From positions 1 to 25,846 of IMG/VR virus record IMGVR_UViG_3300044799_000240: a stretch of DNA of 25,846 nucleotides, one strand, 5' to 3'. The notes below the pieces were generated by a model, which had not been told where the DNA came from, searched no databases, and saw nothing but the letters and a program-made list of their open reading frames with translations. This document shows, one piece after another, positions 6,292 to 18,356 of this stretch (within the stretch, counting starts at the first letter, position 1; each line of letters begins with the position of its first letter). The position numbers were made by a program, and so were the translations under genes. This DNA is from a virus.

Positions 6292-6320
6292 TTGACAAGA
6301 AAATCAATCCGGCATACATC
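6292..6320 (+). promoter_or_regulatory. Promoter of the packaging unit (copy 1)
   Basis: TTGACA at 6292-6297, a 17-base spacer, then TACATC at 6315-6320. The -35 is perfect; the -10 matches TATAAT at only three of six positions. The spacer end CCGGCATACA is nearly repeated before the copy at 12661, which has the same spacing. Initiation about seven bases after the -10 would fall at 6327, exactly where sequence shared by all three leaders begins. Confidence 0.65.
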
Positions 6321-6326
6321 TAAAAC

Positions 6327-6424
6327 AATCACCGAGACACATGCCCCCCCTCCAGGGAACAAGCAATGGCTCAAGACCGGAAATGGCCTTGGGCCATTTC
6401 TGTTCTAAGCCACTTCCAAGGAGG
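6327..6424 (+). promoter_or_regulatory. Repeated structured leader, copy 1
   Basis: The conserved core runs from AATCA (6327) through CCGAG and ATG plus seven C (6341-6350) to a hairpin and the SD. Stem A pairs AATGGCTCAAG (6365-6375) with CTTGGGCCATT (6388-6398), 11 bp with one G-T wobble. Alternative stem B pairs GAAATGGCC (6380-6388) with GGCCATTTC (6392-6400), nine perfect pairs, and excludes A because both need the same 3' strand. CCTCC (6349-6353) is complementary to the SD core GGAGG (6420-6424), while CCCT/AGGG in the same stretch can form a small local hairpin instead. Likely role: RNA control of the downstream miniprotein and terminase. Confidence 0.65.
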
Positions 6425-6430
6425 AACATC

Positions 6431-6550
6431 ATGACAAAGCGTAAGGGCAAGCAGATCTACACACCAAAGCTCAACCACCTGAAAAAGCAGACCGCGCGTG
6501 TGAAGCATCTCGGCAAGCGGGCCAGCAAGACACTCGCCGTCAAGGGATAA
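6431..6550 (+). CDS. 39-aa basic miniprotein A
   Basis: This encodes 39 aa from ATG 6431 behind AAGGAGG, the SD within the repeated leader. Composition is dominated by Lys/Arg, with MTKRKGK at the start, NHLKKQTAR in the middle and GKRASK near the end; there are no acidic residues. It resembles the 36-aa protein at 12801 in length, start (M-x-KR), a central HLKK, and GKRAS against GKKRS. Both sit directly behind copies of the same leader. Nucleic-acid binding is likely from charge alone. Either packaged-DNA condensation or RNA binding to the leader is possible. It lies 49 bases before the terminase. Confidence 0.75.
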   Translation: MTKRKGKQIYTPKLNHLKKQTARVKHLGKRASKTLAVKG

Positions 6551-6599
6551 TCCTTCAGCGATATAAATTCGTCTTGGGACTGCGGAATGTTGGAGATCA

Positions 6600-8759
6600 A
6601 TGTATTCCGAGAAGATCATTCTTCGGAACCTGGACGAATTTGCCGCGCGTGAGGGGTGGATGCCCGCTCCTCATACGTTCGATCAAATAGAAGAATTCAA
6701 GCATTACGTCGACTCGCTAACCAAAATTGAATCAAACTCTCGCAGTTCCTATGTCACCCTGATGCGGCCGATTACCCAAAAACGCCGTCAGGAAATTTGG
6801 CGCTGGATCGAGAATGAACAGGCGATGTGCGGCCTCGATGCCGGCTACTTCGAGAGCCGCTACGCCTATGTCTGCAACGAAAAAGGCGAAATCTTCAAGT
6901 TCCAAAATCGTAGATCGCAGGAAATCTTCGATTCTGTGATTGCCGGCTTCGACGAACTGCAAGTGGCAATTGAAATCCTGGTGATCAAGGCCCGGCAGGT
7001 TGGCATCACGACCAAGACCGCGTTGAAGTTCCTTCACCGCCTCTTGTTCATTCCCCATACGCAGGCTGTGATGGCGTCCGTGCAGTCGGATAAGTCCGAA
7101 CTGATCGGGCGCATTCTTGACATTGCCTACAACCGCTGCCCGTGGTGGCTGGTGCCGCGCAGAATGCCGAAGGGGGCTTTTGAGAACGGTTCCGTGCTTT
7201 CCATCCAGTCTGGCATGCAGGCCACCGGCATTGCTCAGGGGTGGACTCCGACCTGTATCCATGTGTCGGAAATTGCCGATATTCCCAAGCCGGAAAAGGT
7301 GATTGAAGAAGGTCTGTTGCGCGCTACGCACTCTTCAAAAAACCTGTTTCTGGTTTTTGAAGGGACTGGTGGCGGCAATACTGGCTGGCTGGCAAACACT
7401 TGGCGCAGCGCCAAGGAAGATTGGCCGAAGGGCCTTTCCCGGTTGTGCCCTATCTTCATTCCCTGGCCGATGGCGACCGATCTTTATCCAGAAGCCGATT
7501 GGATACGGAAATTCCCCGTTCCTGAAGACTTTATGAGCAAACGGCAGGAGATTACGCGCAAGCATGTTTTGCGCTGCGAACTCTACATCCGCAACACTCC
7601 ATATCTGTCCAAGGTGGTTGGCACGCGTTGGACAATGCCTGTCGAGCAGCAGTGGTTCTGGGAGTTCAACTATCTGCAAGCCTGCAAGAACCATACACAG
7701 AAAATCTGGCTGGCGCAGATGGCCGCCGATGACTTTGAAGCGTTGACCGGCTTGCATGACAGCGTCTTCGACGCGGAAACCATGCAGGAAATTGAAAACA
7801 ACGTTTATGAACTGCATGGAGACACGCGGGAAAGAAAGAAAGAAGTACAGGTGTATGCCATTACGGGTGACTCGATTGACGATGGCTTTGAACCCAACGA
7901 AGCATTCGTCGACGACGAGAAACCACGTATTCGCGTAAGTTGGGAGTCTGATCGGGGCCAGCAATACGACTGGGTTCTGGTTCCTCTTTTGCCAATTGAC
8001 GAAGACAAGGAACCTGATTCGTTCGACAAACTGCTGGTCTATGAAGCGCCCACGCCCGGCACCAGCTATAGTTGCGGAATCGATACGGCCGATGGCTTGG
8101 GCGGCGAGGATGAAGACCGGACCGTCGTGTCGATGACACGAAACAGGTTTGGCGATGAGTTTGACTACCAAGTGGCCGAGCTGACATCGAACCGCATCAA
8201 TTCCGCGCAGATTGTGGGCTTCGCAGCTTGTATGGCCGCCTGGTATGGAGAAAATGCGCGCGATGCGCGCGGCGTGAAGTTCTGCGTAGAGCAGATCGGG
8301 AGGCCGGGCGATACATGCCAGCACCAGCTCAAGCTGATGGGCTTCCATTGGCATCACATTCCACGGCGCTACGACAGTAAGAAGATCAAGGACAACTCCA
8401 CCAAAAAGCAGGGTTGGTACTCCAATGTGTGGAGCGTGCCGATGCTGATGACGCGCTTTACGGAAGCTGTGAACGGCGGCTGGTATCGGCCGGCATCCAA
8501 ATGGCTGATCGAAGAGCTGAAGACGCTGGAACGGCATGAAGCCGCAGGCCGTGTTTCCAAGCTGGAGCACCGCAGCGGCCAGCATGATGACCGCGTGCGT
8601 GCGGCGGCGCAATCTTACTTTACCGCGCACGACTTCGATATCTTGGCTGATCGTTCTCAAGCGCAAAAGCGTTACACGTTGCCGGCGGATCGAACACCAC
8701 CGCTGAATAAGTCTGTGTGCTCGGTGAATATGGTCTCGGTTGGTCGACTGGATTGGTAA
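6600..8759 (+). CDS. terL: Terminase large subunit (packaging ATPase/nuclease)
   Basis: This encodes 719 aa from ATG 6600 with TTGGAGATCA upstream. The N-terminal ATPase shows a deviant Walker A, KARQVGITTKT (130-140), a Walker B-like IHVSE (220-224) and a coupling-motif-like FEGTGGG (253-259). The C-terminal nuclease has the RNase H-like acidic set: GIDTADG (D495, D498), VEQIG (E564) and GQHDDRV (D663, D664). TerL translocates DNA into the prohead through the portal and cuts concatemers. At 719 aa it is longer than many TerL proteins (roughly 450-650), with extra sequence between the two domains. It lies behind miniprotein A in the unit driven by leader copy 1. Confidence 0.95.
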   Translation: MYSEKIILRNLDEFAAREGWMPAPHTFDQIEEFKHYVDSLTKIESNSRSSYVTLMRPITQKRRQEIWRWIENEQAMCGLDAGYFESRYAYVCNEKGEIFKFQNRRSQEIFDSVIAGFDELQVAIEILVIKARQVGITTKTALKFLHRLLFIPHTQAVMASVQSDKSELIGRILDIAYNRCPWWLVPRRMPKGAFENGSVLSIQSGMQATGIAQGWTPTCIHVSEIADIPKPEKVIEEGLLRATHSSKNLFLVFEGTGGGNTGWLANTWRSAKEDWPKGLSRLCPIFIPWPMATDLYPEADWIRKFPVPEDFMSKRQEITRKHVLRCELYIRNTPYLSKVVGTRWTMPVEQQWFWEFNYLQACKNHTQKIWLAQMAADDFEALTGLHDSVFDAETMQEIENNVYELHGDTRERKKEVQVYAITGDSIDDGFEPNEAFVDDEKPRIRVSWESDRGQQYDWVLVPLLPIDEDKEPDSFDKLLVYEAPTPGTSYSCGIDTADGLGGEDEDRTVVSMTRNRFGDEFDYQVAELTSNRINSAQIVGFAACMAAWYGENARDARGVKFCVEQIGRPGDTCQHQLKLMGFHWHHIPRRYDSKKIKDNSTKKQGWYSNVWSVPMLMTRFTEAVNGGWYRPASKWLIEELKTLERHEAAGRVSKLEHRSGQHDDRVRAAAQSYFTAHDFDILADRSQAQKRYTLPADRTPPLNKSVCSVNMVSVGRLDW

Positions 8760-8771
8760 GGGGGGAAGACA

Positions 8772-9170
8772 ATGAAATGTTTTGGCTTGCAGAAAGAAAA
8801 AAAGCGGGGTTTGACGTTACGAACTCCGTGGCTGCAATTCACGGTGTTGTTTGGCAAAGAGGCGACACAAACAGAATCAAGGGATGAAACTGTTTCTCAA
8901 TCTCGCGATCAAAATTGGTTTGAAGAACAAATGGAAGCAATTCGTCAAGGAGAGCGTCTGCATCCGGTCATGATGACTGCCAGAGAACGGCACATGGAAT
9001 CCGCTCGCGTGATCAAAGGACTTGATTGGAGCAAAGGTTTCTGCGATTCGCATGGCGTCATGGCGGGATTTGAGGCCATTCTCGGCAGTCATCTTGCACA
9101 TGCGAATGGTTGCGCCATCGAATATTCGTCTGAATTCACTGAAGCAGAACTTCGCCAGATCATCCGGTAA
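8772..9170 (+). CDS. Hypothetical protein, paralogue 1 (RLHPVMMTA family)
   Basis: This encodes 132 aa from ATG 8772 behind AAGGGGGGAAG. Residues 50-91 contain FEEQMEAIRQGERLHPVMM and then TARERH, with LDWSKGF at 84-90. The same region recurs in the next gene (VEKQFNEIAAGKRLHPVMM, TATELH, LKWSKTF), so the two are related by duplication. The N-terminal 40 residues differ. Position between terminase and portal suggests a packaging or head role, but no family is recognised. Confidence 0.7.
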   Translation: MKCFGLQKEKKRGLTLRTPWLQFTVLFGKEATQTESRDETVSQSRDQNWFEEQMEAIRQGERLHPVMMTARERHMESARVIKGLDWSKGFCDSHGVMAGFEAILGSHLAHANGCAIEYSSEFTEAELRQIIR

Positions 9171-9192
9171 GAAGTAAACGGAGATAAAACAA

Positions 9193-9816
9193 ATGAAAAT
9201 CAGCTTTAGCGACGAAAGAAAACCAGAGCAATGCTCGCGCAGTGTCACGTGGGCAACGCGCTGGTTCACGATTTTATTTGATTGGGGAGCCATGCTCTAT
9301 GGCAGAAGCGACGAGTTTGGTCTGGTAATTCTGCTCCGTGGTTGGGGACCGATCTTCTATTGGGGAAGGCGCGATCTTCACAATCTCGGGGAATCGAGCA
9401 AATTCAATTGGCTGCATTTTGTTACTCAGCATCCAAAGTACAGAAAGGCACGAAAGTATTACACGGAGCAGCGTGACTTTGTTGAGAAACAGTTCAATGA
9501 GATCGCTGCCGGCAAGCGGCTTCATCCGGTGATGATGACGGCAACCGAGCTGCACGCGCAAACAAAGAAGGCCACGCAAAAATTGAAATGGAGCAAGACG
9601 TTTGTCATGGCGATGAGTGCTCCGTTAGCTTTACGGGCTCTGGAAAATGGTGGTTATGCAAAAGATCCGCTCACGGGTGCTGCACTCCAGCTTACTCCGT
9701 CAGAGTTGGCCCGGCTCAAAAACGTTACGCGCCAAAACTTCCGAGAGTTCAATGACGTTTGGGCTGATACGGACAGGCTTATTTCCGAGAACAGGGAAAT
9801 GCTGGAGAGCAAATGA
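9193..9816 (+). CDS. Hypothetical protein, paralogue 2 (RLHPVMMTA family)
   Basis: This encodes 207 aa from ATG 9193 with CGGAGATAAAAC upstream. Residues 1-75 are rich in Trp, Tyr and Phe (FTILFDWGAMLYG, LLRGWGPIFYWGRRDL), perhaps a small beta domain or membrane-associated patch. Residues 95-140 carry the block shared with the previous gene, including RLHPVMMTA at 109-117. The C-terminus is helical (ELARLKNVTRQNFREFNDVW). The stop overlaps the next start (ATGA). Function unknown; it belongs to the packaging operon. Confidence 0.7.
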   Translation: MKISFSDERKPEQCSRSVTWATRWFTILFDWGAMLYGRSDEFGLVILLRGWGPIFYWGRRDLHNLGESSKFNWLHFVTQHPKYRKARKYYTEQRDFVEKQFNEIAAGKRLHPVMMTATELHAQTKKATQKLKWSKTFVMAMSAPLALRALENGGYAKDPLTGAALQLTPSELARLKNVTRQNFREFNDVWADTDRLISENREMLESK

Positions 9817-10202
9817 ACGCGCAACTGACAACAAAGATTGTTTTTTGGCTGGACACACTGAATGGCCAGATCAAGATGGGTTTGCCGGAAGAGTATCCCG
9901 CACCGGATTTTCACGAAAAGATTGTCTGTAACTCGGCGCACGAAGCCGAGTTGTGGTCCGAAAAGATGCGGCAGCAGGAAGCCCACAAGCAGCAGATGGA
10001 AGATGCAAAGCGGGAAGAAGTCGAGGGAAGAATCCGGCGGCAGCAGCGCGATCACATTTACCACCTGATGACCAATGCACGAAACAACGTAAACCGCGAA
10101 TTCCTGCGTCGGCACCTGGAACTCTATGACAAGCGCGCTGACAGAACGCAGATGCATACGGAAAGCTATCTGCACGCGGAGGCCTACGAAAAAGGACGCT
10201 GA
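9813..10202 (+). CDS. Hypothetical coiled-coil protein
   Basis: This encodes 129 aa, starting in an ATGA overlap after GGAGAGCAA. The N-terminal 40 residues look like a small fold (KIVFWLDTLNGQIKMGLPEEY). From about residue 45 the sequence is a long charged helix rich in Glu, Gln, Lys and Arg (WSEKMRQQEAHKQQMEDAK), likely a coiled coil. No family recognised. It is the last gene before the portal. Confidence 0.65.
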   Translation: MNAQLTTKIVFWLDTLNGQIKMGLPEEYPAPDFHEKIVCNSAHEAELWSEKMRQQEAHKQQMEDAKREEVEGRIRRQQRDHIYHLMTNARNNVNREFLRRHLELYDKRADRTQMHTESYLHAEAYEKGR

Positions 10203-10309
10203 GATGCGTAAGTTATGCGCAATGTTGAAATTAGCGTAGACGTGTAGACAAAATATGCCTACTATGCGCTCATGGCTCAGGAACTCACCGAGGAGGAAAC
10301 GGGCGATGT
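10203..10309 (+). other. Gap before portal gene
   Basis: This 107-base stretch has no convincing promoter: TTGAAA at 10225 has no -10 at usual spacing. GTAGAC occurs twice, eight bases apart, near 10235-10249. A short frame at 10273-10329 could encode 18 residues and contains the AGGAGG (10291-10296) that probably serves the portal GTG. It has no SD of its own, so I do not call it a gene. Confidence 0.3.
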
Positions 10310-12403
10310 GTGGAACTGCAAACTGTAAATTGGCAAGTACCGAAGTTTGAATCTTCCCCGAGTTCCCGTGTCGGCTGGGTCGAGGAGCAGATCCAGGAAG
10401 GTGAAGGCTTCCTGGAAGGTCAGTCGTGCTACAAAAACCTGGGCACGAACATGCGCATCTTCGATGCCATCTTCAGGGACAAATCGCGCTCGATTCTGGT
10501 CACCAATGATCTGAAATACGATATTCGGAAGTTTTGCGAAACACTGTCCGAAGTAAGGGAAATCGCCGGTTATGGATCGGACATCCCAGCCTTCAAGCAG
10601 ATGGCGGAGATGCTGACCCGCGTTTCCAAGGCCGTTTATCTGGAATCCGATTTCCCATATCAAATTCTAAAGGTTTTGCAATATGCCAGCGTCACGGGCA
10701 TCGGCTATCTATGGCCAAAAGTACGAGCGGATGAATATGGCTATGGCGAGCGCAAGCTGGTTTTCGATGCGTTGGGACTTCTGGACGTGGTTCCGGTACA
10801 GATTCCCAGAAGCAATGACGTGCAGGATGCTTATGCCGTCACCATTTACGACTACATGCCGATTGCGGAAGCGCATGGGCGTTTTCCGCTCTTCCAGGGC
10901 CAATTACAAACGGTGGGACCGCGGAGTTACAAAACACAGGTTCAAGCGCGCCGGATGGATTACGCGGAACGCTTTCGTTACGGGGAACAAGGACGGAGCT
11001 TTGGCAACCTCTACACGGAGATTCGCTACACGTTTGTCCGCGATTTGCGAATCAACGCGCCAATTAACGGCAAAGGGTATGAGATGCCCATGGGCGATCT
11101 TGGCACCAGTTGGTTCTATAAAGTGCCGTTTGTCGGGCAGGATATCTTTGGCGGGATGCGCAACGGACAACCCTTTATGCGGCCAGCAACCGTAGAAGAT
11201 TGCCGCGTCTATCCAAATTTACGACTCATCATTACGTCTTCCGGGCTTGATCGACCGATGTATGACGGCCCGGCTTTTGACTGGGACGGAAAAATGCCGG
11301 TGATCCAATACACCGTCGATGATTGGGCATGGGAGTCGCTTGGCCGTTCCCTGGTCGGCGATGTCGCTTCGATTGAAACCACGACGCGCAAGATTGAACG
11401 CAAGATCGACGACGTGATCACCATTACGTTGAATCCGCCGATCGGCTACGACCACACGGCGACGGGTGGCCCAAAAATTGAGCATTTTGACATTTTTGAC
11501 CAGAATGTCCGCTACGGAGTTGACGGCAAGCCGAAAGACATTTTGCAATCCTTGCTGCCAGAGGAAGTCCGTGTTGACAATACGCACTTCACTTTCCTGA
11601 AGTATCTGAAGGACTGCAAGCAATCGCAGCTTGGACTAACCGATCTGGGCAATCTTCAAAACATGAAGATGAACATTGCCAACGACACGGCCGACAAGAT
11701 GCTGGAATCAATCGGACCCATCGCCAAGGGCATTGCCGCACGCATTGAGAAAGGCAACAAAGCGGTTGGCTACCGCATGAAATTCCTGATTCTGCAATGG
11801 TTCAATGTGCGCCGGATTATGGAGTACGTGGGGCCGGATAACATTGCGCGCGAAGTCTTCGATTTTAATCCCGATGATCTGGTTCCCAGCCATCTGCCGG
11901 ATGAAATGGTTGGCGGCAATTTCCCGGAATCGCCCTCGCAGTATGACCAACTTACACGGGCGCGCTGGTTTGCCAAGCAGATTCGGCTGGTGTCCGTGCC
12001 CAGCACCTTGCTGAAGATTACGCAGATGCAAGAGCAACTAAAGTATCTGCAACTGAAGCGCGGTCAGGCGCCAATTTCCTGGGCGACGGTCATGAAAAAA
12101 ATGGGTGTCGAGAATTATGGGGAAGCGGCAGGCAACACCGAACGCGAAAAGTGGTTCAACGAGGAGCTGGAGACACAGAAGCTGCAAATTCTGGCGCAAG
12201 CTCAGGCTGCGCAGTTAATGAAGCAACTCGGCATTGAACCCCAGCAGGGAGCACCAGGAAAAGGCAAAGGGGGCGGTAAGGGTGGCGGCGGAGACAAAGG
12301 TGGCGGCGGCGGCGGTCGAGAACCGTCAGGAGGAAAAGCGCCCAAACTCAAGCAAAAAGGCGCACAGGGCGGAACCCCGCGTACGACGGTGACCGAAAGT
12401 TAA
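10310..12403 (+). CDS. Portal protein
   Basis: This encodes 697 aa from GTG 10310. AGGAGG lies 13 bases upstream, farther than usual, but no other in-frame start is available. The order (terminase, small genes, portal, scaffold, capsid) and the sequence fit a portal: an N-terminal region with repeated aromatic and charged helices, a wing with VPVQIPRSNDVQDAY, a stem-like helical part near residues 350-380 (VASIETTTRKIERKIDDVI), and a long C-terminal helix (about 560-625). The last 60 residues are Gly/Lys-rich (for example GKGKGGGKGGGG) and probably disordered; they may contact DNA or scaffold. The portal forms the dodecameric DNA channel at one capsid vertex. The assignment rests on synteny, size and general pattern. 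Confidence 0.85.
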   Translation: MELQTVNWQVPKFESSPSSRVGWVEEQIQEGEGFLEGQSCYKNLGTNMRIFDAIFRDKSRSILVTNDLKYDIRKFCETLSEVREIAGYGSDIPAFKQMAEMLTRVSKAVYLESDFPYQILKVLQYASVTGIGYLWPKVRADEYGYGERKLVFDALGLLDVVPVQIPRSNDVQDAYAVTIYDYMPIAEAHGRFPLFQGQLQTVGPRSYKTQVQARRMDYAERFRYGEQGRSFGNLYTEIRYTFVRDLRINAPINGKGYEMPMGDLGTSWFYKVPFVGQDIFGGMRNGQPFMRPATVEDCRVYPNLRLIITSSGLDRPMYDGPAFDWDGKMPVIQYTVDDWAWESLGRSLVGDVASIETTTRKIERKIDDVITITLNPPIGYDHTATGGPKIEHFDIFDQNVRYGVDGKPKDILQSLLPEEVRVDNTHFTFLKYLKDCKQSQLGLTDLGNLQNMKMNIANDTADKMLESIGPIAKGIAARIEKGNKAVGYRMKFLILQWFNVRRIMEYVGPDNIAREVFDFNPDDLVPSHLPDEMVGGNFPESPSQYDQLTRARWFAKQIRLVSVPSTLLKITQMQEQLKYLQLKRGQAPISWATVMKKMGVENYGEAAGNTEREKWFNEELETQKLQILAQAQAAQLMKQLGIEPQQGAPGKGKGGGKGGGGDKGGGGGGREPSGGKAPKLKQKGAQGGTPRTTVTES

Positions 12404-12413
12404 GGAGAAAAGC

Positions 12414-12653
12414 ATGAAGCCGGAAATCAAAATTCAGAGAGACTTCTATCTGACCGAAGCGAGCATTGAATTGCCCACGGATATTGGGCAATTGAGCGAA
12501 ATCCTGAAGGCAACAAAGACCACGGGAAAACTGGTGATTCAGTATAACCAGGGATCTGTGCAGGGCGTCAATGTCGAACAGCGCACCAAGATTTCTGATG
12601 CTCAGGCAGCCGAAATCCGTCCTTTGCTGGAGATTGGTGAAAAGATTTTGTAA
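12414..12653 (+). CDS. Hypothetical small protein
   Basis: This encodes 79 aa from ATG 12414, with TAAGGAGAAAAG upstream, ten bases after the portal stop. It reads as a compact alpha/beta protein: strand KIQRDFYL, helix IGQLSEILKA, strand GKLVIQYNQGSVQGVNVEQR, and a C-terminal helix. Unknown function. It ends eight bases before the promoter of leader copy 2. Confidence 0.7.
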   Translation: MKPEIKIQRDFYLTEASIELPTDIGQLSEILKATKTTGKLVIQYNQGSVQGVNVEQRTKISDAQAAEIRPLLEIGEKIL

Positions 12654-12660
12654 TTAGGCC

Positions 12661-12689
12661 TTGACACGAAAAAAGATTCGGCCTACAGA
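12661..12689 (+). promoter_or_regulatory. Promoter of the head-assembly unit (copy 2)
   Basis: TTGACA at 12661-12666, a 17-base spacer, then TACAGA at 12684-12689. It matches the copy at 6292 through the flank and spacer (TAGG before; CGGC and TACA at the same positions). Initiation near 12696-12698 would again coincide with the start of the conserved leader. Two independent copies with the same -35, spacing and downstream element make it more credible than either alone. Confidence 0.65.
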
Positions 12690-12697
12690 TGATTAAG

Positions 12698-12793
12698 AAT
12701 CAACCGAGCGACATGCCCCCCCTCCTTGGGGAATCAGCAATGGCTCAAGAACCGAAATGGCTCTTGGGCCATTTCTATTTTGCACCCAAGGAG
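12698..12793 (+). promoter_or_regulatory. Repeated structured leader, copy 2
   Basis: It begins AATCA (12698) and has CCGAG, then ATG and seven C. Stem A pairs AATGGCTCAAGA (12739-12750) with TCTTGGGCCATT (12762-12773), 12 bp with one wobble. Stem B pairs GAAATGGCT (12754-12762) with GGCCATTTC (12767-12775). CTCCTTGGG (12722-12730) is a perfect 9-base complement of CCCAAGGAG (12785-12793), which contains the SD. A competing local hairpin CCCC/GGGG uses the same upstream bases. This is the clearest case of possible SD sequestration among the three copies. Confidence 0.7.
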
Positions 12794-12800
12794 AAATCAC

Positions 12801-12911
12801 ATGGCGAAGCGTGGAAAAAAGGTCAGCGCAATGAAGGCAAGTCACCTGAAGAAGGGTGGCCGCAAGGGCCGTCGCAAGGGCGGAAAGAAACGCAGCAGCA
12901 TCAAGGCTTAG
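12801..12911 (+). CDS. 36-aa extremely basic miniprotein B
   Basis: This encodes 36 aa from ATG 12801, with AAGGAG in the leader as SD. About half of its residues are Lys or Arg, with Gly, Ser and Ala making up most of the rest (MAKRGKK, SHLKKGGRKGRRKGGKKR). There are no acidic residues. It is related to miniprotein A by length, M-x-KR start, central HLKK and GKKRS end. A different frame through the same DNA is open longer, but its product is compositionally odd and starts inside the leader. Likely a nucleic-acid-binding peptide: protamine-like DNA condensation or RNA binding. Confidence 0.75.
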   Translation: MAKRGKKVSAMKASHLKKGGRKGRRKGGKKRSSIKA

Positions 12912-12919
12912 TTAGCCGT

Positions 12920-12950
12920 TCCCCAACGGCAGCTTAGCCGCCGTTGGGGA
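12920..12950 (+). other. Perfect 11-bp hairpin after miniprotein B
   Basis: TCCCCAACGGC (12920-12930), nine-base loop, and GCCGTTGGGGA (12940-12950) form an 11-bp perfect stem. No T-run follows, so it is not a standard intrinsic terminator. Lying between miniprotein B and the next SD, it could be an RNA-processing or stability element that sets different expression on either side. Confidence 0.55.
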
Positions 12951-12967
12951 CCTCACCAGGAGATCCA

Positions 12968-13288
12968 ATGGCTACAGCTTCACAACCAATGCCAGATCAG
13001 CAAGGTCAGGGCGCGCCAGCTCCAGGTGGCGGCGCTCCACCGACTCCTCCAGATCAAGGCGCACCAGATCAAAATCAGCCGCAGCAGCCGGGAGCTTCCT
13101 CTCAGGCACCTGCGAACCCCATGCAGATGCTGCTTGCGCGCTGGTATCAGACGGTCAAGCAAATGGCCGCTTCCGACCCGCGTCTGGCTTCAGGCGCCGA
13201 AAAGATCGCGCAAGGAATTCAGGAAATGCAGACGGCATTAGTTAGTCCGCCGCAGCCAACCCCTGTAAGTCAACAACCGCAATATTAA
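12968..13288 (+). CDS. Pro/Gln/Gly-rich hypothetical head-assembly protein
   Basis: This encodes 106 aa from ATG 12968 behind CCAGGAGATCC; an upstream in-frame start at 12944 lies inside the hairpin and lacks an SD. Residues 1-60 are low complexity (Pro, Gln, Gly, Ala) and probably disordered. Residues 61-95 form a helical segment (MLLARWYQTVKQMAASD and GAEKIAQGIQEMQTAL). The last residues are again Pro/Gln-rich. The place just before the scaffold candidate suggests an assembly cofactor or minor head protein; no family recognised. Confidence 0.65.
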   Translation: MATASQPMPDQQGQGAPAPGGGAPPTPPDQGAPDQNQPQQPGASSQAPANPMQMLLARWYQTVKQMAASDPRLASGAEKIAQGIQEMQTALVSPPQPTPVSQQPQY

Positions 13289-13309
13289 CGCTTCGGGAGA
13301 ATACACGAA

Positions 13310-14326
13310 ATGCCGACTGTCCAAGAGGTTTTAAAGCAATCCGGGTTGACTGACGAGCAGATCGCCGCGCTTGATGCGAAGGCGATTTCTGCGTTTACTG
13401 GTGTTCTTACCACCGCCGAACAGGAACGGCAGACAGCACAGCAGGCTACTGCAAAAGCAGAGCAGGAAAGAAAAGCCGCGACGGAATCGGTCGAAAAGGC
13501 CGAACAGGAACGGAAGGCTGCAGCGGAAGCGCTCGAAGCGCAAGAAGTTCGCAAACGCAGCAACGATCAGTTTTACGAAGAAAGCATCGTGCCGGCGCTG
13601 AATAACTGGGGCAATGAAAAGACCCAGAAAGACGCTGAGCTGGCTTTCTACAAGACGCAACTGGAAAGCGCAAAGGCCACCGGATTTATTCCGACAGAGG
13701 CCCCCAACTATCAGCCGCAGCCAGCCGCCGCGCAGGCCACGCCGCAACGCGATGCGCAGGGCCGCTATGTGGCCGGCGTTCAGGGCGGCACGCCAGGCAG
13801 CCCGACCTTCACGATGGAAGCCATCGACCAGCGGCTGGGCAACGGCATCAGCAATATCGGTTGGGCCATGCAGGAGTACCAGAGATTGAGCGGTGGTCAG
13901 TTCCTCCCCGATTCCTTCGACAAGCTGGCGGAAGAAGCGAGCAATTCGCGGTTGCCTTTCCGCGATTACGTGGCGCGGAAGTACGACTTCGCAGGCAAGC
14001 AGTCCGAGATTCAGCGCAAGCAGGAAGAAGAACACGATACCAAGATTCGGCAAGAAGTTTCAGCGCCTTTTGAAGCAAAGTTGAAAGAAGCCGAAGCTGC
14101 CAAGCAGAAGGCGATTGAAGAAACTGATCGCAAGTGGGCCGAAAAGATTGGTTCCAACCCTGACGTGCATATTGCGCAGCCCAGCCGGTTCGCCGATGTT
14201 GCGCGCGCAGTCAAGGCCAACGAACGGCCAGATCCGTTGAATTTGAATGAACAGCAGCGCCGGCAGGCAACATCGCAGGCGATTCACCATGAAGTTGTGG
14301 AGCATGGGCAAGAAGTAGCAGCCTAG
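13310..14326 (+). CDS. Scaffolding protein candidate
   Basis: This encodes 338 aa from ATG 13310 with CGGGAGA about ten bases upstream. It has a small N-terminal helical domain (residues 1-35). A long Ala/Glu/Lys/Gln coiled coil follows (about 35-90, with repeated AEQERKAA and KAEQERKAA), then a Gln/Ala/Pro linker (about 125-160). A globular-looking middle comes next (GNGISNIGWAMQEYQRLSGG), and a second charged helix (about 225-275). This shape, and the position immediately before the capsid gene, fit an internal scaffold that directs capsid assembly. I see no protease motif. No direct family motif is known to me, so the call rests on composition and synteny. Confidence 0.7.
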   Translation: MPTVQEVLKQSGLTDEQIAALDAKAISAFTGVLTTAEQERQTAQQATAKAEQERKAATESVEKAEQERKAAAEALEAQEVRKRSNDQFYEESIVPALNNWGNEKTQKDAELAFYKTQLESAKATGFIPTEAPNYQPQPAAAQATPQRDAQGRYVAGVQGGTPGSPTFTMEAIDQRLGNGISNIGWAMQEYQRLSGGQFLPDSFDKLAEEASNSRLPFRDYVARKYDFAGKQSEIQRKQEEEHDTKIRQEVSAPFEAKLKEAEAAKQKAIEETDRKWAEKIGSNPDVHIAQPSRFADVARAVKANERPDPLNLNEQQRRQATSQAIHHEVVEHGQEVAA

Positions 14327-14345
14327 TTCCGCAGCAGTTTTGAAA

Positions 14346-14437
14346 AATCAATCGAGACGCATGCCCCCCTTCAGGGAATCAGCAATGGCTCAAGACCAGA
14401 GATGGCTTGAGCCATTTCTATTTCATTCTCAAGAAGG
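14346..14437 (+). promoter_or_regulatory. Repeated structured leader, copy 3
   Basis: It begins AATCAATCGAG (14346) and has ATG and six C. Stem A pairs AATGGCTCAAG (14384-14394) with CTTGAGCCATT (14406-14416), 11 perfect pairs; the wobble of copies 1 and 2 is replaced by a Watson-Crick pair. CCTTC (14368-14372) is complementary to GAAGG (14433-14437), the capsid SD. Both sides differ from copy 1 at the matching base. No TTGACA precedes it, so it would act in a read-through transcript. It leads straight into the capsid gene without a miniprotein. Confidence 0.65.
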
Positions 14438-14443
14438 TGTCCA

Positions 14444-15676
14444 GTGCCAACCGATCCTCTCTATAACGAAATCGATGCGTCGAACCTGGAAAGCGTCCGC
14501 AAAAATGTAGTCTTCAACAACCTGTTTGTGGATACGCCGTTTCAGGCCAAGCTCCGCAGGGCTGGTGTGTGGGATGAATTCCTCGGCGGCGCCGGCATGA
14601 TGGAAGGCATTCTCTACGGGCGCACGCAAGGCGCCGCAGTGAATCCCGGCCAGACGGTCACCGTGACCCGCCAACAGATCAACACCGGCATCAAGTTCCT
14701 GCCCAAGGCGTATGCCACCTGGTATCCGCTGGACGACTGGGAAATGGATGACGGCTCCGGCACGGGCGGTGTGATTAACTCCGGTCCGTCAAAGATTGTC
14801 GACGAGTACCAGCTCTACATGGAAGCCATGGTAATGACCATGAACACCATGCAGGAGATGGATTCCTTCCGGCATGGCCAGCCTTCCTCGACAACTGTTC
14901 TCGACAATCGCATCAAGACCATCAACGGCATGGACGAAGCCTTGAACAACGGCATCGATCCCTCCGTCTACGGCAACATCTACACGAATTACGGCGGACA
15001 AGCGCGCAATGGCAACATCGGCACGGCGCTGAACACGACGCCGCAATATCTGGGAACATCGGCTGGAGCACCCGGCCAGATCGACTTTGCCGCCCTGATG
15101 CAGTTGTGGTCGACAATCAAGGTCGCAGGCGGCAATCCGACGCTGGGCATCACCAACGTTTTCGGGTTCAGAGCCATCGCCGTCGCGCTCGATGCGCAGC
15201 GCCGCGACATTTCGAACACCAAGCACGACATCAAGTGGGATGGCCTGAACTTCAACGGCGTCGACATTTATGCCGATCCGCTGGCGCCTTCAGCCCAGGC
15301 TCAGAACTACATCGAACTGGCTCCGGCGAACGGCGCAGCCGGCAATACGAACCTTCAGGACGGCGTTGGATCGAGCACCACAACGGTGTCGTTCACGACT
15401 CCGCAGTTCACCAAGAACGGCGCGAACGTCCTTGTATCGCCGACCGGTTCCGGTTTGCCTTCGGTCACCACGATTCAGCCCAGCGAAGTGATTTACTTCC
15501 TGGAGCCGGAAAGCTTCAAGATTCGCCCGACCAACAAGAAGGGCTGGAACTTTGGTCTGCGCCGTGCGCCAATGCCGAATAACGTGAGCATCGATGCTCT
15601 GTTTATGCGGCTGGGCACGAACCTGTACAACGTGCAGCCGCGCCACAACAACTATGCTTTTGGATTCTCGGTCTAA
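14444..15676 (+). CDS. Major capsid protein candidate
   Basis: This encodes 410 aa from GTG 14444, with AAGAAGG in the leader as SD. Position after the scaffold, size and sequence fit a major capsid protein, probably HK97-like fold. An N-terminal arm is followed by an extended loop-like region (GRTQGAAVNPGQTVTVTRQQ), a long spine-helix candidate (about residues 118-145, EYQLYMEAMVMTMNTMQ), and a beta-rich C-terminal half. That half ends SIDALFMRLGTNLYNVQPR. Asn, Gly and Thr are common, as in many capsids. Hundreds of copies would build the shell. Fold assignment is from pattern, not from a recognised signature. Confidence 0.85.
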   Translation: MPTDPLYNEIDASNLESVRKNVVFNNLFVDTPFQAKLRRAGVWDEFLGGAGMMEGILYGRTQGAAVNPGQTVTVTRQQINTGIKFLPKAYATWYPLDDWEMDDGSGTGGVINSGPSKIVDEYQLYMEAMVMTMNTMQEMDSFRHGQPSSTTVLDNRIKTINGMDEALNNGIDPSVYGNIYTNYGGQARNGNIGTALNTTPQYLGTSAGAPGQIDFAALMQLWSTIKVAGGNPTLGITNVFGFRAIAVALDAQRRDISNTKHDIKWDGLNFNGVDIYADPLAPSAQAQNYIELAPANGAAGNTNLQDGVGSSTTTVSFTTPQFTKNGANVLVSPTGSGLPSVTTIQPSEVIYFLEPESFKIRPTNKKGWNFGLRRAPMPNNVSIDALFMRLGTNLYNVQPRHNNYAFGFSV

Positions 15677-17246: not shown

Positions 17247-17275
17247 ACGAGGTCTTTCCCCCGAAGACAAACCAG

Positions 17276-17310
17276 ACGCCTCTTGCGGGGTAACTCGCAG
17301 GAGGCGTTTT
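17276..17310 (+). terminator. Intrinsic terminator after head genes
   Basis: ACGCCTCTTGCG (17276-17287), an eight-base loop, and CGCAGGAGGCGT (17296-17307) form a 12-bp stem with one G-T wobble. TTTT completes at 17310. This is the best rho-independent terminator in the window. It separates the head genes from the neck and tail genes and implies that another promoter, or antitermination, serves 17346 onward. Confidence 0.8.
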
Positions 17311-17318
17311 GGTAAGAG

Positions 17319-17345: not shown

Positions 17346-18356
17346 ATGGCGTTTCAAAACATGATTCAAGAGTTGCTCGGCATCCCTGGTTGCAATCTTG
17401 GCTTGGTCAAAACCAAGCTCAATGAAGCCCTGCAGGCCATCCAGAACGAAAACGTCTGGAGCTTCCAACTTCAAACCGGAGGCTGGCTGACGCCCTCGCT
17501 GCTGGGCGGCCCTACGACGCAGTTTCTCAGCCCCGGAACAATTACCGTTACGCCCTTTACCAACACCATCACCGGCGACGCCACGGCCTCGGCCGCATGG
17601 ATTGCCACGATCACCAACCCGCCGCTAATTACCCAGTACCAGATCCGCGTTCCGTATTATTCGCTCTATAACGTCGTTGCCCTCGATGCGACAAACACCT
17701 CCGCCGTGGTGCTGACGCTGGACCGGCCATGGATGGAACCCGCACAGACGAACGGGACCTACATGGCCTACCAAGCCTACTATCCAGCTCCGGCAGGCTT
17801 CAAACGCTGGTACAACATACGCGACACGACCAACAACAACCAGCTCGACTGGTGGAGCAAGACGCAAATCGACTTGGCCAACGAAGACGCGGAACGGACC
17901 GATTTCGACGAGCCACTTTACGTTGTTCCCTACGGCCAGGACACGCGAACCGGTTCAGCAACTTATGGACAGATGCTGTATGAGCTGTGGCCGCATCCGA
18001 TTACGCAACTGCCCTACACCTTTTGTTGCCAAGCAAACTGGCCGGCGCTGACCAATCCAGCCGATACGCTGCCCTTTCCGCTGACGGAAGAGCTGGTAAA
18101 GCTGCGCGCCTACGAGATGCTCTATCTCTGGAAAGAGTCGCAAAAGGGCGACGAGATGGAGCGCGGCTCGGGCGCCAACTGGCAATTCCTGATGCAGGCG
18201 TCGCGCGCCGAATATGCCAACCGGCTGCAAATGATTCGCAACATGGACAGAAATCTTGTTGATCTGTACTTCACCCGGATGGAACGGTTCCCGTCGGCGT
18301 TTGGCGAGCCGTACAGCACGGTGGAAGGACAGCTCAATGTTGGCGGATGGGGATAG
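17346..18356 (+). CDS. Neck / head-tail adaptor protein candidate
   Basis: This encodes 336 aa from ATG 17346; upstream GGGGTGGCGGC is a poor SD. The N-terminal 45 residues are helical (KLNEALQAIQNENVWSF). The middle is a beta-rich domain (residues 55-160). The C-terminal part has LTEELVKLRAYEMLYLWKE and a following helix with LMQASRAEYANRLQM. This combination of structural sandwich and terminal helices, after the capsid genes, fits a head completion or tail-tube adaptor of short-tailed phages. It would bind under the portal. The call is by pattern and order. Confidence 0.65.
   Translation: MAFQNMIQELLGIPGCNLGLVKTKLNEALQAIQNENVWSFQLQTGGWLTPSLLGGPTTQFLSPGTITVTPFTNTITGDATASAAWIATITNPPLITQYQIRVPYYSLYNVVALDATNTSAVVLTLDRPWMEPAQTNGTYMAYQAYYPAPAGFKRWYNIRDTTNNNQLDWWSKTQIDLANEDAERTDFDEPLYVVPYGQDTRTGSATYGQMLYELWPHPITQLPYTFCCQANWPALTNPADTLPFPLTEELVKLRAYEMLYLWKESQKGDEMERGSGANWQFLMQASRAEYANRLQMIRNMDRNLVDLYFTRMERFPSAFGEPYSTVEGQLNVGGWG

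Follow-up and report, generated by a model that had tools for sequence, protein, structure and literature searches.

Late-gene timing in phages is usually set by new sigma factors, by antiterminator proteins or by a polymerase of the phage's own, and riboswitches and ribosomal-protein leaders control their transcripts through outputs that form a terminator or occlude the ribosome-binding site. Among the RNAs of phages and mobile elements, putL of phage HK022 spans about 70 nt just downstream of PL, and put RNA acts via binding of the beta-prime zinc-binding domain of RNA polymerase, serving early operons with two copies per genome (PMC9378689). The canT RNA of Tn916 is a single-copy antiterminator of about 450 nt, shown by experiment (PMC11658703), and the ESAS of cluster K mycobacteriophages precede non-structural genes, their authors having seen little support for hairpins in mRNA (PMC3203893). 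Here we describe a repeated element in a 25.8-kb virus record (IMG/VR record IMGVR_UViG_3300044799_000240, 25,846 nt; hereafter the window, meaning the whole stretch of DNA analysed), three copies of which precede the terminase, putative scaffold and major capsid units. The element is very probably a structured cis-acting RNA in which two folds compete for one strand.

Anatomically, the nearest known element is the HK022 put RNA, which, as far as the cited account describes it, is likewise a phage cis-acting RNA, measuring about 70 nt and carrying two stem-loops, promoter-proximal (putL) or further inside the transcript (putR), and recurring in the genome. The two differ in setting, early operons for put against structural units here, and the portions of that account drawn on here describe no competing long hairpin for put. 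A nucleotide search of 50,697 phage records did not match the element, and no dedicated alignment to putL or putR was made; we do not claim membership. ESAS, the nearest repeated phage element, is also an inverted-repeat element of unknown function, repeated upstream of many start codons in one phage and kept at orthologous genes. It goes with a 13-bp repeat located at the start codon and with non-structural genes, whereas the present element belongs to structural genes and its pairing is backed by compensatory changes; in the copies inspected, the stretch from element to start codon shows no 13-bp GGGATAGGAGCCC of SAS/ESAS, and here too membership is not claimed. The canT RNA offers a parallel as a mobile-element cis-acting RNA near the main promoter that alters termination in long downstream operons, and differs in being long and single-copy where the present element is short and repeated; as far as is known, the sequences are unrelated. 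A constant half joined to an exchangeable output half, competing strands and a position at the transcript start recall riboswitches and ribosomal-protein leaders, from which the element differs in having no Rfam 15 family and in being repeated several times in a virus before unrelated structural units.

All three copies reported in a preliminary description of this DNA lie where it had placed them, as confirmed by the sequence itself and by a direct-repeat search of the window, which recovers each of them. A covariance model built from the window copies and their relatives scores them at 95.2 bits (6325–6407), 87.3 bits (12697–12782) and 94.7 bits (14345–14425), with the next-best sense-strand site of the window at 17.4 bits. 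Because the model was trained on its own copies, the independent evidence is the direct-repeat search, the fold energies and the relatives. Taken with their ribosome sites, the window copies fold better than dinucleotide shuffles (z = -3.8 to -4.1). They are laid out as follows:

6292–6321, + strand: sigma-70-type promoter of copy 1, TTGACA-N17-TACATC, its -10 hexamer ending 13 nt ahead of GAG
6334–6404, + strand: copy 1 (class A), ahead of a 39-aa basic protein and the terminase; placed by alignment, covariance model and folding
6334–6372: hairpin I of copy 1, pairing GAG (6334–6336) with CUC (6370–6372) and CAUGC (6340–6344) with GC(A)AUG (6363–6368)
6347–6349 with 6355–6357: stem 1 of copy 1, within hairpin I
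6380–6386 with 6394–6400: hairpin II of copy 1
6365–6375 with 6388–6398: long hairpin of copy 1
6401 onwards: U-rich tail of copy 1
12662–12690, + strand: sigma-70-type promoter of copy 2, TTGACA-N17-TACAGA, its -10 hexamer ending 16 nt ahead of GAG
12706–12780, + strand: copy 2 (class B), ahead of a 36-aa basic protein and the putative scaffold genes
12706–12746, and 12754–12760 with 12769–12775: hairpins I and II of copy 2
14354–14421, + strand: copy 3 (class MCP, major capsid protein), 20 nt behind the preceding gene and without a promoter
14354–14391, and 14399–14405 with 14412–14418: hairpins I and II of copy 3

In a gap-poor alignment of 85 columns, whose numbering is used below, the 5' part of the constant frame reads GAG (10–12), N3, CAUGC (16–20), C, stem 1, AAYMA (36–40), GC(A)AUG (41–46), G and CUC (48–50), and the 3' part reads AAG, ACCA, GNRAUGG (58–64), CUUGRG (66–71), CCAUNYC (72–78) and a U-rich tract. 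The preliminary description had envisaged an element of about 95 nt ending at the Shine-Dalgarno (SD) sequence; the repeated element is real, its conserved portion measures about 70–75 nt and the end at the SD is not constant. Of the conserved blocks proposed there, AATCA is not generally conserved; GAG, CAUGC(C), AAYMA and GC(A)AUGGCUC are the constant stretches. Copies were gathered with patterns fixing GCAAYGGCUCARR, plus AUGCCCCCC in the first scan. The constancy of these stretches, and likewise of CAUGCCCC and GCAAUGGCUC, which served as search patterns, is partly selected; GAG is constant though it was no search letter.

This frame can pair in two mutually exclusive ways. State A, obtained with RNAalifold, combines stem 1 with the long hairpin (43–53 with 66–76), capped by CCA-GNRA-UGG, and state B combines hairpin I (10–50) with the short hairpin II (58–78) directly ahead of the U-rich tail. 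Covariation supplied the pairs that are incompatible with state A, namely 59:77, 62:74, 17:45 and 18:44; the first is counted as A-U 51 times, C-G 19 times, and U-A and G-C once each, the second as U-A 64 times and C-G 10 times, and the GAG:CUC pairing of hairpin I is invariant. The alignment supports a model in which the strand GCAAUGGCUC can pair with GAG..CAUGC on its 5' side, forming hairpin I, or else with CUUGRGCCAUU on its 3' side, forming the long GNRA-capped hairpin, and in which that 3' strand can alternatively pair with GNRAUGG, forming hairpin II. Competition of the two folds for the shared strand is well supported. A single pseudoknot holding CUCAAG:CUUGAG and GNRAUGG:CCAUNNC together was rejected, because no nucleotides join the two 3' strands and the stems cannot coexist.

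Both sets of pairs are kept with great regularity. In state B, 97.9% of alignment cells hold standard pairs, and there are 75 two-sided changes, against a shuffle mean of 19, with slid versions at most 45% paired; for state A the corresponding values are 97.7%, 68 changes against 17, and at most 57%. In a G-test with average product correction, the top six of about 3,300 column pairs are all proposed pairs. A branch-event test, which counts the tree branches on which the two partners of a pair change and stay complementary, gives 10 events for stem 1 (2.8 by chance), 5 for P0 (0.14) and 9 for hairpin II (1.9), and for the long hairpin 3 in its lower part (0.31, P = 0.0016) and 5 in its upper part (0.90, P = 0.0012). 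Five divergent copies carry an altered shared strand GC(A)AUG, with UAU:AUA in two, CGC:GCG in two and CGU:ACG in one in place of CAU:AUG; their 5' partner has changed along with it, and their 3' partner matches wholly or partly. One genome (G015) has five different 5' arms of hairpin II (GAAAUGG, GCAAUGG, GCGAUGG, GAAACGG and GGGAUGG), each with its own complementary 3' arm. Stems that differ yet stay complementary argue against a plain DNA operator or a shared protein operator and for base pairing, and we consider it likely that both folds are under selection.

The preliminary view that selection acts on structure and not on peptides is borne out by these changes, counted on the tree in several helices, and the stem it described is one of two alternative folds. 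A conserved leader peptide was rejected: reading frames from the constant AUGCCC vary in sequence and end at unrelated places, and one-base insertions and deletions between copies are frequent, so the upstream frames differ, as first noted.

Scanning viral contigs with the element pattern returned 43 stretches, and a looser pattern 107; many of the copies derive from related phages. In the fetched loci, 94 distinct sequences fit the core pattern, whereas shuffled versions of the same 1.57 Mb contain no match. Further copies in related phages, which the preliminary description had asked for, were found with the covariance model in all 24 IMG/VR records searched whole (at least one strong copy in each, several in most), records that had all been reached via loci already carrying the element. 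Between phages, copies at the same position (A, B or capsid) are 0.78–0.87 identical, against 0.76–0.77 between positions within one phage. No named motif matches, as had been surmised: Rfam 15 gave no match at the curated gathering score over the whole window, a permissive Rfam search of copy 1 gave far sub-threshold hits only (best 14.8 bits, E = 2.2), and no phage motif of such kind was found described in the literature. One exact pattern run against 84,980 bacterial and archaeal genomes hit 15 times in unrelated taxa, and the model gave none of these sites a score. The window's terminase is 29% identical to those of Tunturiibacter phages, a likeness that makes an acidobacterium the probable host; in the isolated Tunturiibacter phage Tunturi_1, a terminase relative, the covariance model did not find the element. 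The element is a candidate for a new RNA family, in a group of soil phages that has received hardly any study.

About 55 of the 78 distinct copies follow promoter-like hexamers (typically TTGNNN and a TATAAT-like -10, 16–18 nt apart), and in these the -10 ends 12–16 nt ahead of GAG; capsid-class copies have no such promoter. With promoters upstream of the A, B and tail copies, these are expected to form transcript 5' ends and the capsid copy to be intercistronic, so that the term leader, first applied to all three, suits the A and B copies with their own promoters and not the capsid copy inside its operon. The spacer of the A and B promoters, in the window (6292–6321 and 12662–12690) and in relatives, often carries ATTCGG before the -10, which exceeds plain sigma-70 needs. 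From the element's end to the start codon the distance is mostly 11–28 nt, in some copies tens of nt and as much as about 130. Units headed by the element in the records examined comprise a basic protein (36–39 aa) with the terminase, a similar protein with the putative scaffold, and the capsid, and further an 85-aa basic protein (MAKLTYKKR..), an 800–1300-aa tail-region protein (MANPQ..) and a MSFWSSLFGG unit. Strong hits occupy the structural part of the genome, at 10–42 kb of a 53.6-kb record and 9–42 kb of an 89-kb record. The element is not confined to head genes; relatives carry it before tail and virion units as well.

At the 3' end, the element has by sequence the anatomy of an intrinsic terminator, a GC-containing hairpin followed directly by a U-rich tract, which makes it a putative terminator; a terminator-like tail score at or below -2.5, which we take to be the cut-off, was reached by 102 of 109 copies and by 19% of random tails. 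A few variant copies without a U-rich tail retain the hairpin I half. Among them, those ahead of a 64-aa basic protein could pair the shared strand near the SD and start codon, and ahead of the MANPQ protein in two phages a stem of about 7 bp, its 3' arm falling within the gene, holds the SD and GUG start in its loop. In these tail-less variants the sensor half appears fixed and the output half exchangeable.

Folded alone, the 5' half gives the GAG:CUC pair a probability above 0.5 in 73 of 79 copies, that is, hairpin I. Prefix folding of the window copies, an equilibrium and not a kinetic calculation, has hairpin I appear at about 46–52 nt and the long hairpin take over at about 64–70 nt. Of 79 copies, 67 have their lower energy in state A, which is favoured by a mean of 5.9 kcal/mol; in the final predicted state of the window copies, state B is slightly lower for copy 1, and copy 3 ends in state A.

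We put forward, at about even confidence, that the element is a cis-acting two-fold expression switch copied ahead of most structural-gene units of one phage lineage; such a switch would probably govern the timing or strength of capsid and tail production. During transcription, hairpin I would form first and the long hairpin could displace it later. Hairpin I would serve as a sensor, held or released by one trans-acting factor, possibly a phage or host protein or RNA polymerase itself, and a single factor would switch all structural units jointly. Should hairpin I win, expression would be on; should the long hairpin win, the next gene would be expressed less, through terminator-like stopping in ordinary copies and, in the small number of tail-less ones, through a stem that encloses the ribosome site. 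This particular output, stopping or ribosome-site occlusion, is offered tentatively. A phage-wide RNA regulon, in which one factor reads hairpin I on each structural transcript and turns the whole set together from stop to go, is less likely than not; if it existed, the early-to-late switch would be made on nascent RNA despite ordinary-looking host sigma-70 promoters. Host-type promoters followed by a switch-like RNA at structural genes do suggest that late timing may be set on the nascent transcript, and the compactness of the element, its many natural variants and the compensatory changes for both folds make it a good test case for co-transcriptional RNA folding.

Several observations weigh against a two-fold switch. 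An all-pairs G-test with a tree-based null gave no single pair with E < 0.05, which is why the branch-event test was run; compensatory changes in two exclusive folds, as in a riboswitch, and covariation above the phylogenetic background, proposed as a check in the preliminary description, are hence found by the event test and not significant in this stricter one. The event test itself counts one event for the cap pairs (0.32 by chance), which is not significant. The collection patterns fix part of the shared strand, the element's own sequences supplied the tree, and the data that scored hairpin II and P0 are those on which both had first been spotted. One and the same U-rich tail follows state A and hairpin II, which leaves it unobvious how the folds would differ in termination, and the alternative pairing before the 64-aa protein gene amounts to 4–6 bp only. 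Finally, with state A energetically favoured, most copies would rest in it without a factor.

These points give room to other explanations. In processive antitermination, state B would bind RNA polymerase leaving the promoter, as HK022 put RNA does, and terminators in the long structural operons would be read through. Such a role fits the two stem-loops, which lie at most about 90 nt from the start and directly behind promoters as in putL (hairpins I and II of state B fall within about 70 nt, 5–9 nt behind the expected transcription start in most copies), the variable distance to the ribosome site, and a conserved terminator-like double hairpin in the structural region about 2.8 kb past the capsid start, although this internal terminator could be merely leaky. 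It would account for state B but not for selection on the long hairpin, nor for variant copies that pair around the ribosome site; the capsid copy far inside its transcript counts against it only weakly, since putR too lies about 270 nt from its promoter. Overall we find antitermination improbable. The same holds for purely translational control, in which the leader would mask the SD and start codon, directly or via the stem-1 loop, until a late factor opened it. With the leader extended, the SD of each of the three window copies is base-paired to the element in the minimum-energy fold; the stem-1 loop CCUCCUU of class B is invariant in 13 of 13 copies and complementary to the SD (in copy 2 of the window, UCCUU to AAGGA), and a few variants place the ribosome site in or beside an alternative stem. 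When native elements were swapped for those of other classes, SD pairing was raised for native B (0.64 vs 0.45) and capsid copies (0.65 vs 0.48), but not for A (0.43 vs 0.59) or other copies (0.60 vs 0.59), in classes of small size; moreover, the gap to the start codon reaches about 130 nt in some copies, and the U-rich tail and promoter spacing are left unexplained. Universal SD sequestration is unsupported for the A and tail classes in this swap test; translation may be touched in some copies and is not the common denominator.

A passive role would dispense with switching altogether: a hairpin near the 5' end would keep the abundant mRNAs of structural genes from being degraded, with the long hairpin as a processing or ribosome-loading aid. 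Hairpin I does begin at most about 10 nt from the expected 5' ends, structural proteins require high expression, and the capsid copy might sit at a 5' end made by processing, but a stabiliser has no call for exclusive folds, for the constant internal loop AAYMA or for the ribosome-site variants, and we hold it to be quite improbable. A site acting as DNA (an operator, cruciform or mobile repeat), its paired changes arising from template switching in a quasi-palindrome, is more improbable still. In its favour, the element's 3' part comes close to a perfect palindrome, and paired changes can result from template switching; against this, the G015 copies have differing self-complementary stems and most copies have a promoter at a fixed upstream distance. 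Nor do the copies scatter without regard to gene context or strand, as REP- or MITE-like repeats do: the strong copies of any one record all lie on one strand, in gene sense, in orthologous contexts, with position classes retained across phages.

The genes behind the window copies are the following:

6431–6550, + strand: mini A, 39-aa basic protein, first gene past copy 1
6600–8759, + strand: terminase large subunit (PHROG 5989, E = 2.3e-8; tblastn to the Tunturi_1 terminase, 8e-79)
12801–12911, + strand: mini B, 36-aa basic protein, first gene past copy 2
14444–15676, + strand: major capsid protein, GTG start, past copy 3 (PHROG 9953 major head protein, E = 9.8e-5)

The very basic 39- and 36-aa proteins are always found downstream of A and B copies, and similar ones head the equivalent units in relatives. 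They have no PHROG or Pfam match and might, by composition only, be RNA or DNA binders. In three relatives (L020, L025 and L034), the class A copies are followed by an additional hairpin (CCCGCAACAACCAAGTTGGCGGG) between element and SD, and in three others (L003, L009 and L014) an open reading frame resembling a homing endonuclease, assigned by eye, is inserted between the capsid-class copy and the capsid gene.

A second conserved double hairpin occupies 17247–17312 of the window, just ahead of a gene at 17346 and about 2.8 kb past the capsid start. It consists of a GUCUU..AAGAC stem-loop, a linker, a stem of about 13–18 bp and UUUUGG, and its covariance-model score of 17.4 bits makes a distant relation to the main element possible. 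This structure, possibly an intrinsic terminator on the border between head and tail genes, occurs at the same place in eleven relatives with compensatory changes, and Tunturi_1 has a two-hairpin arrangement there.

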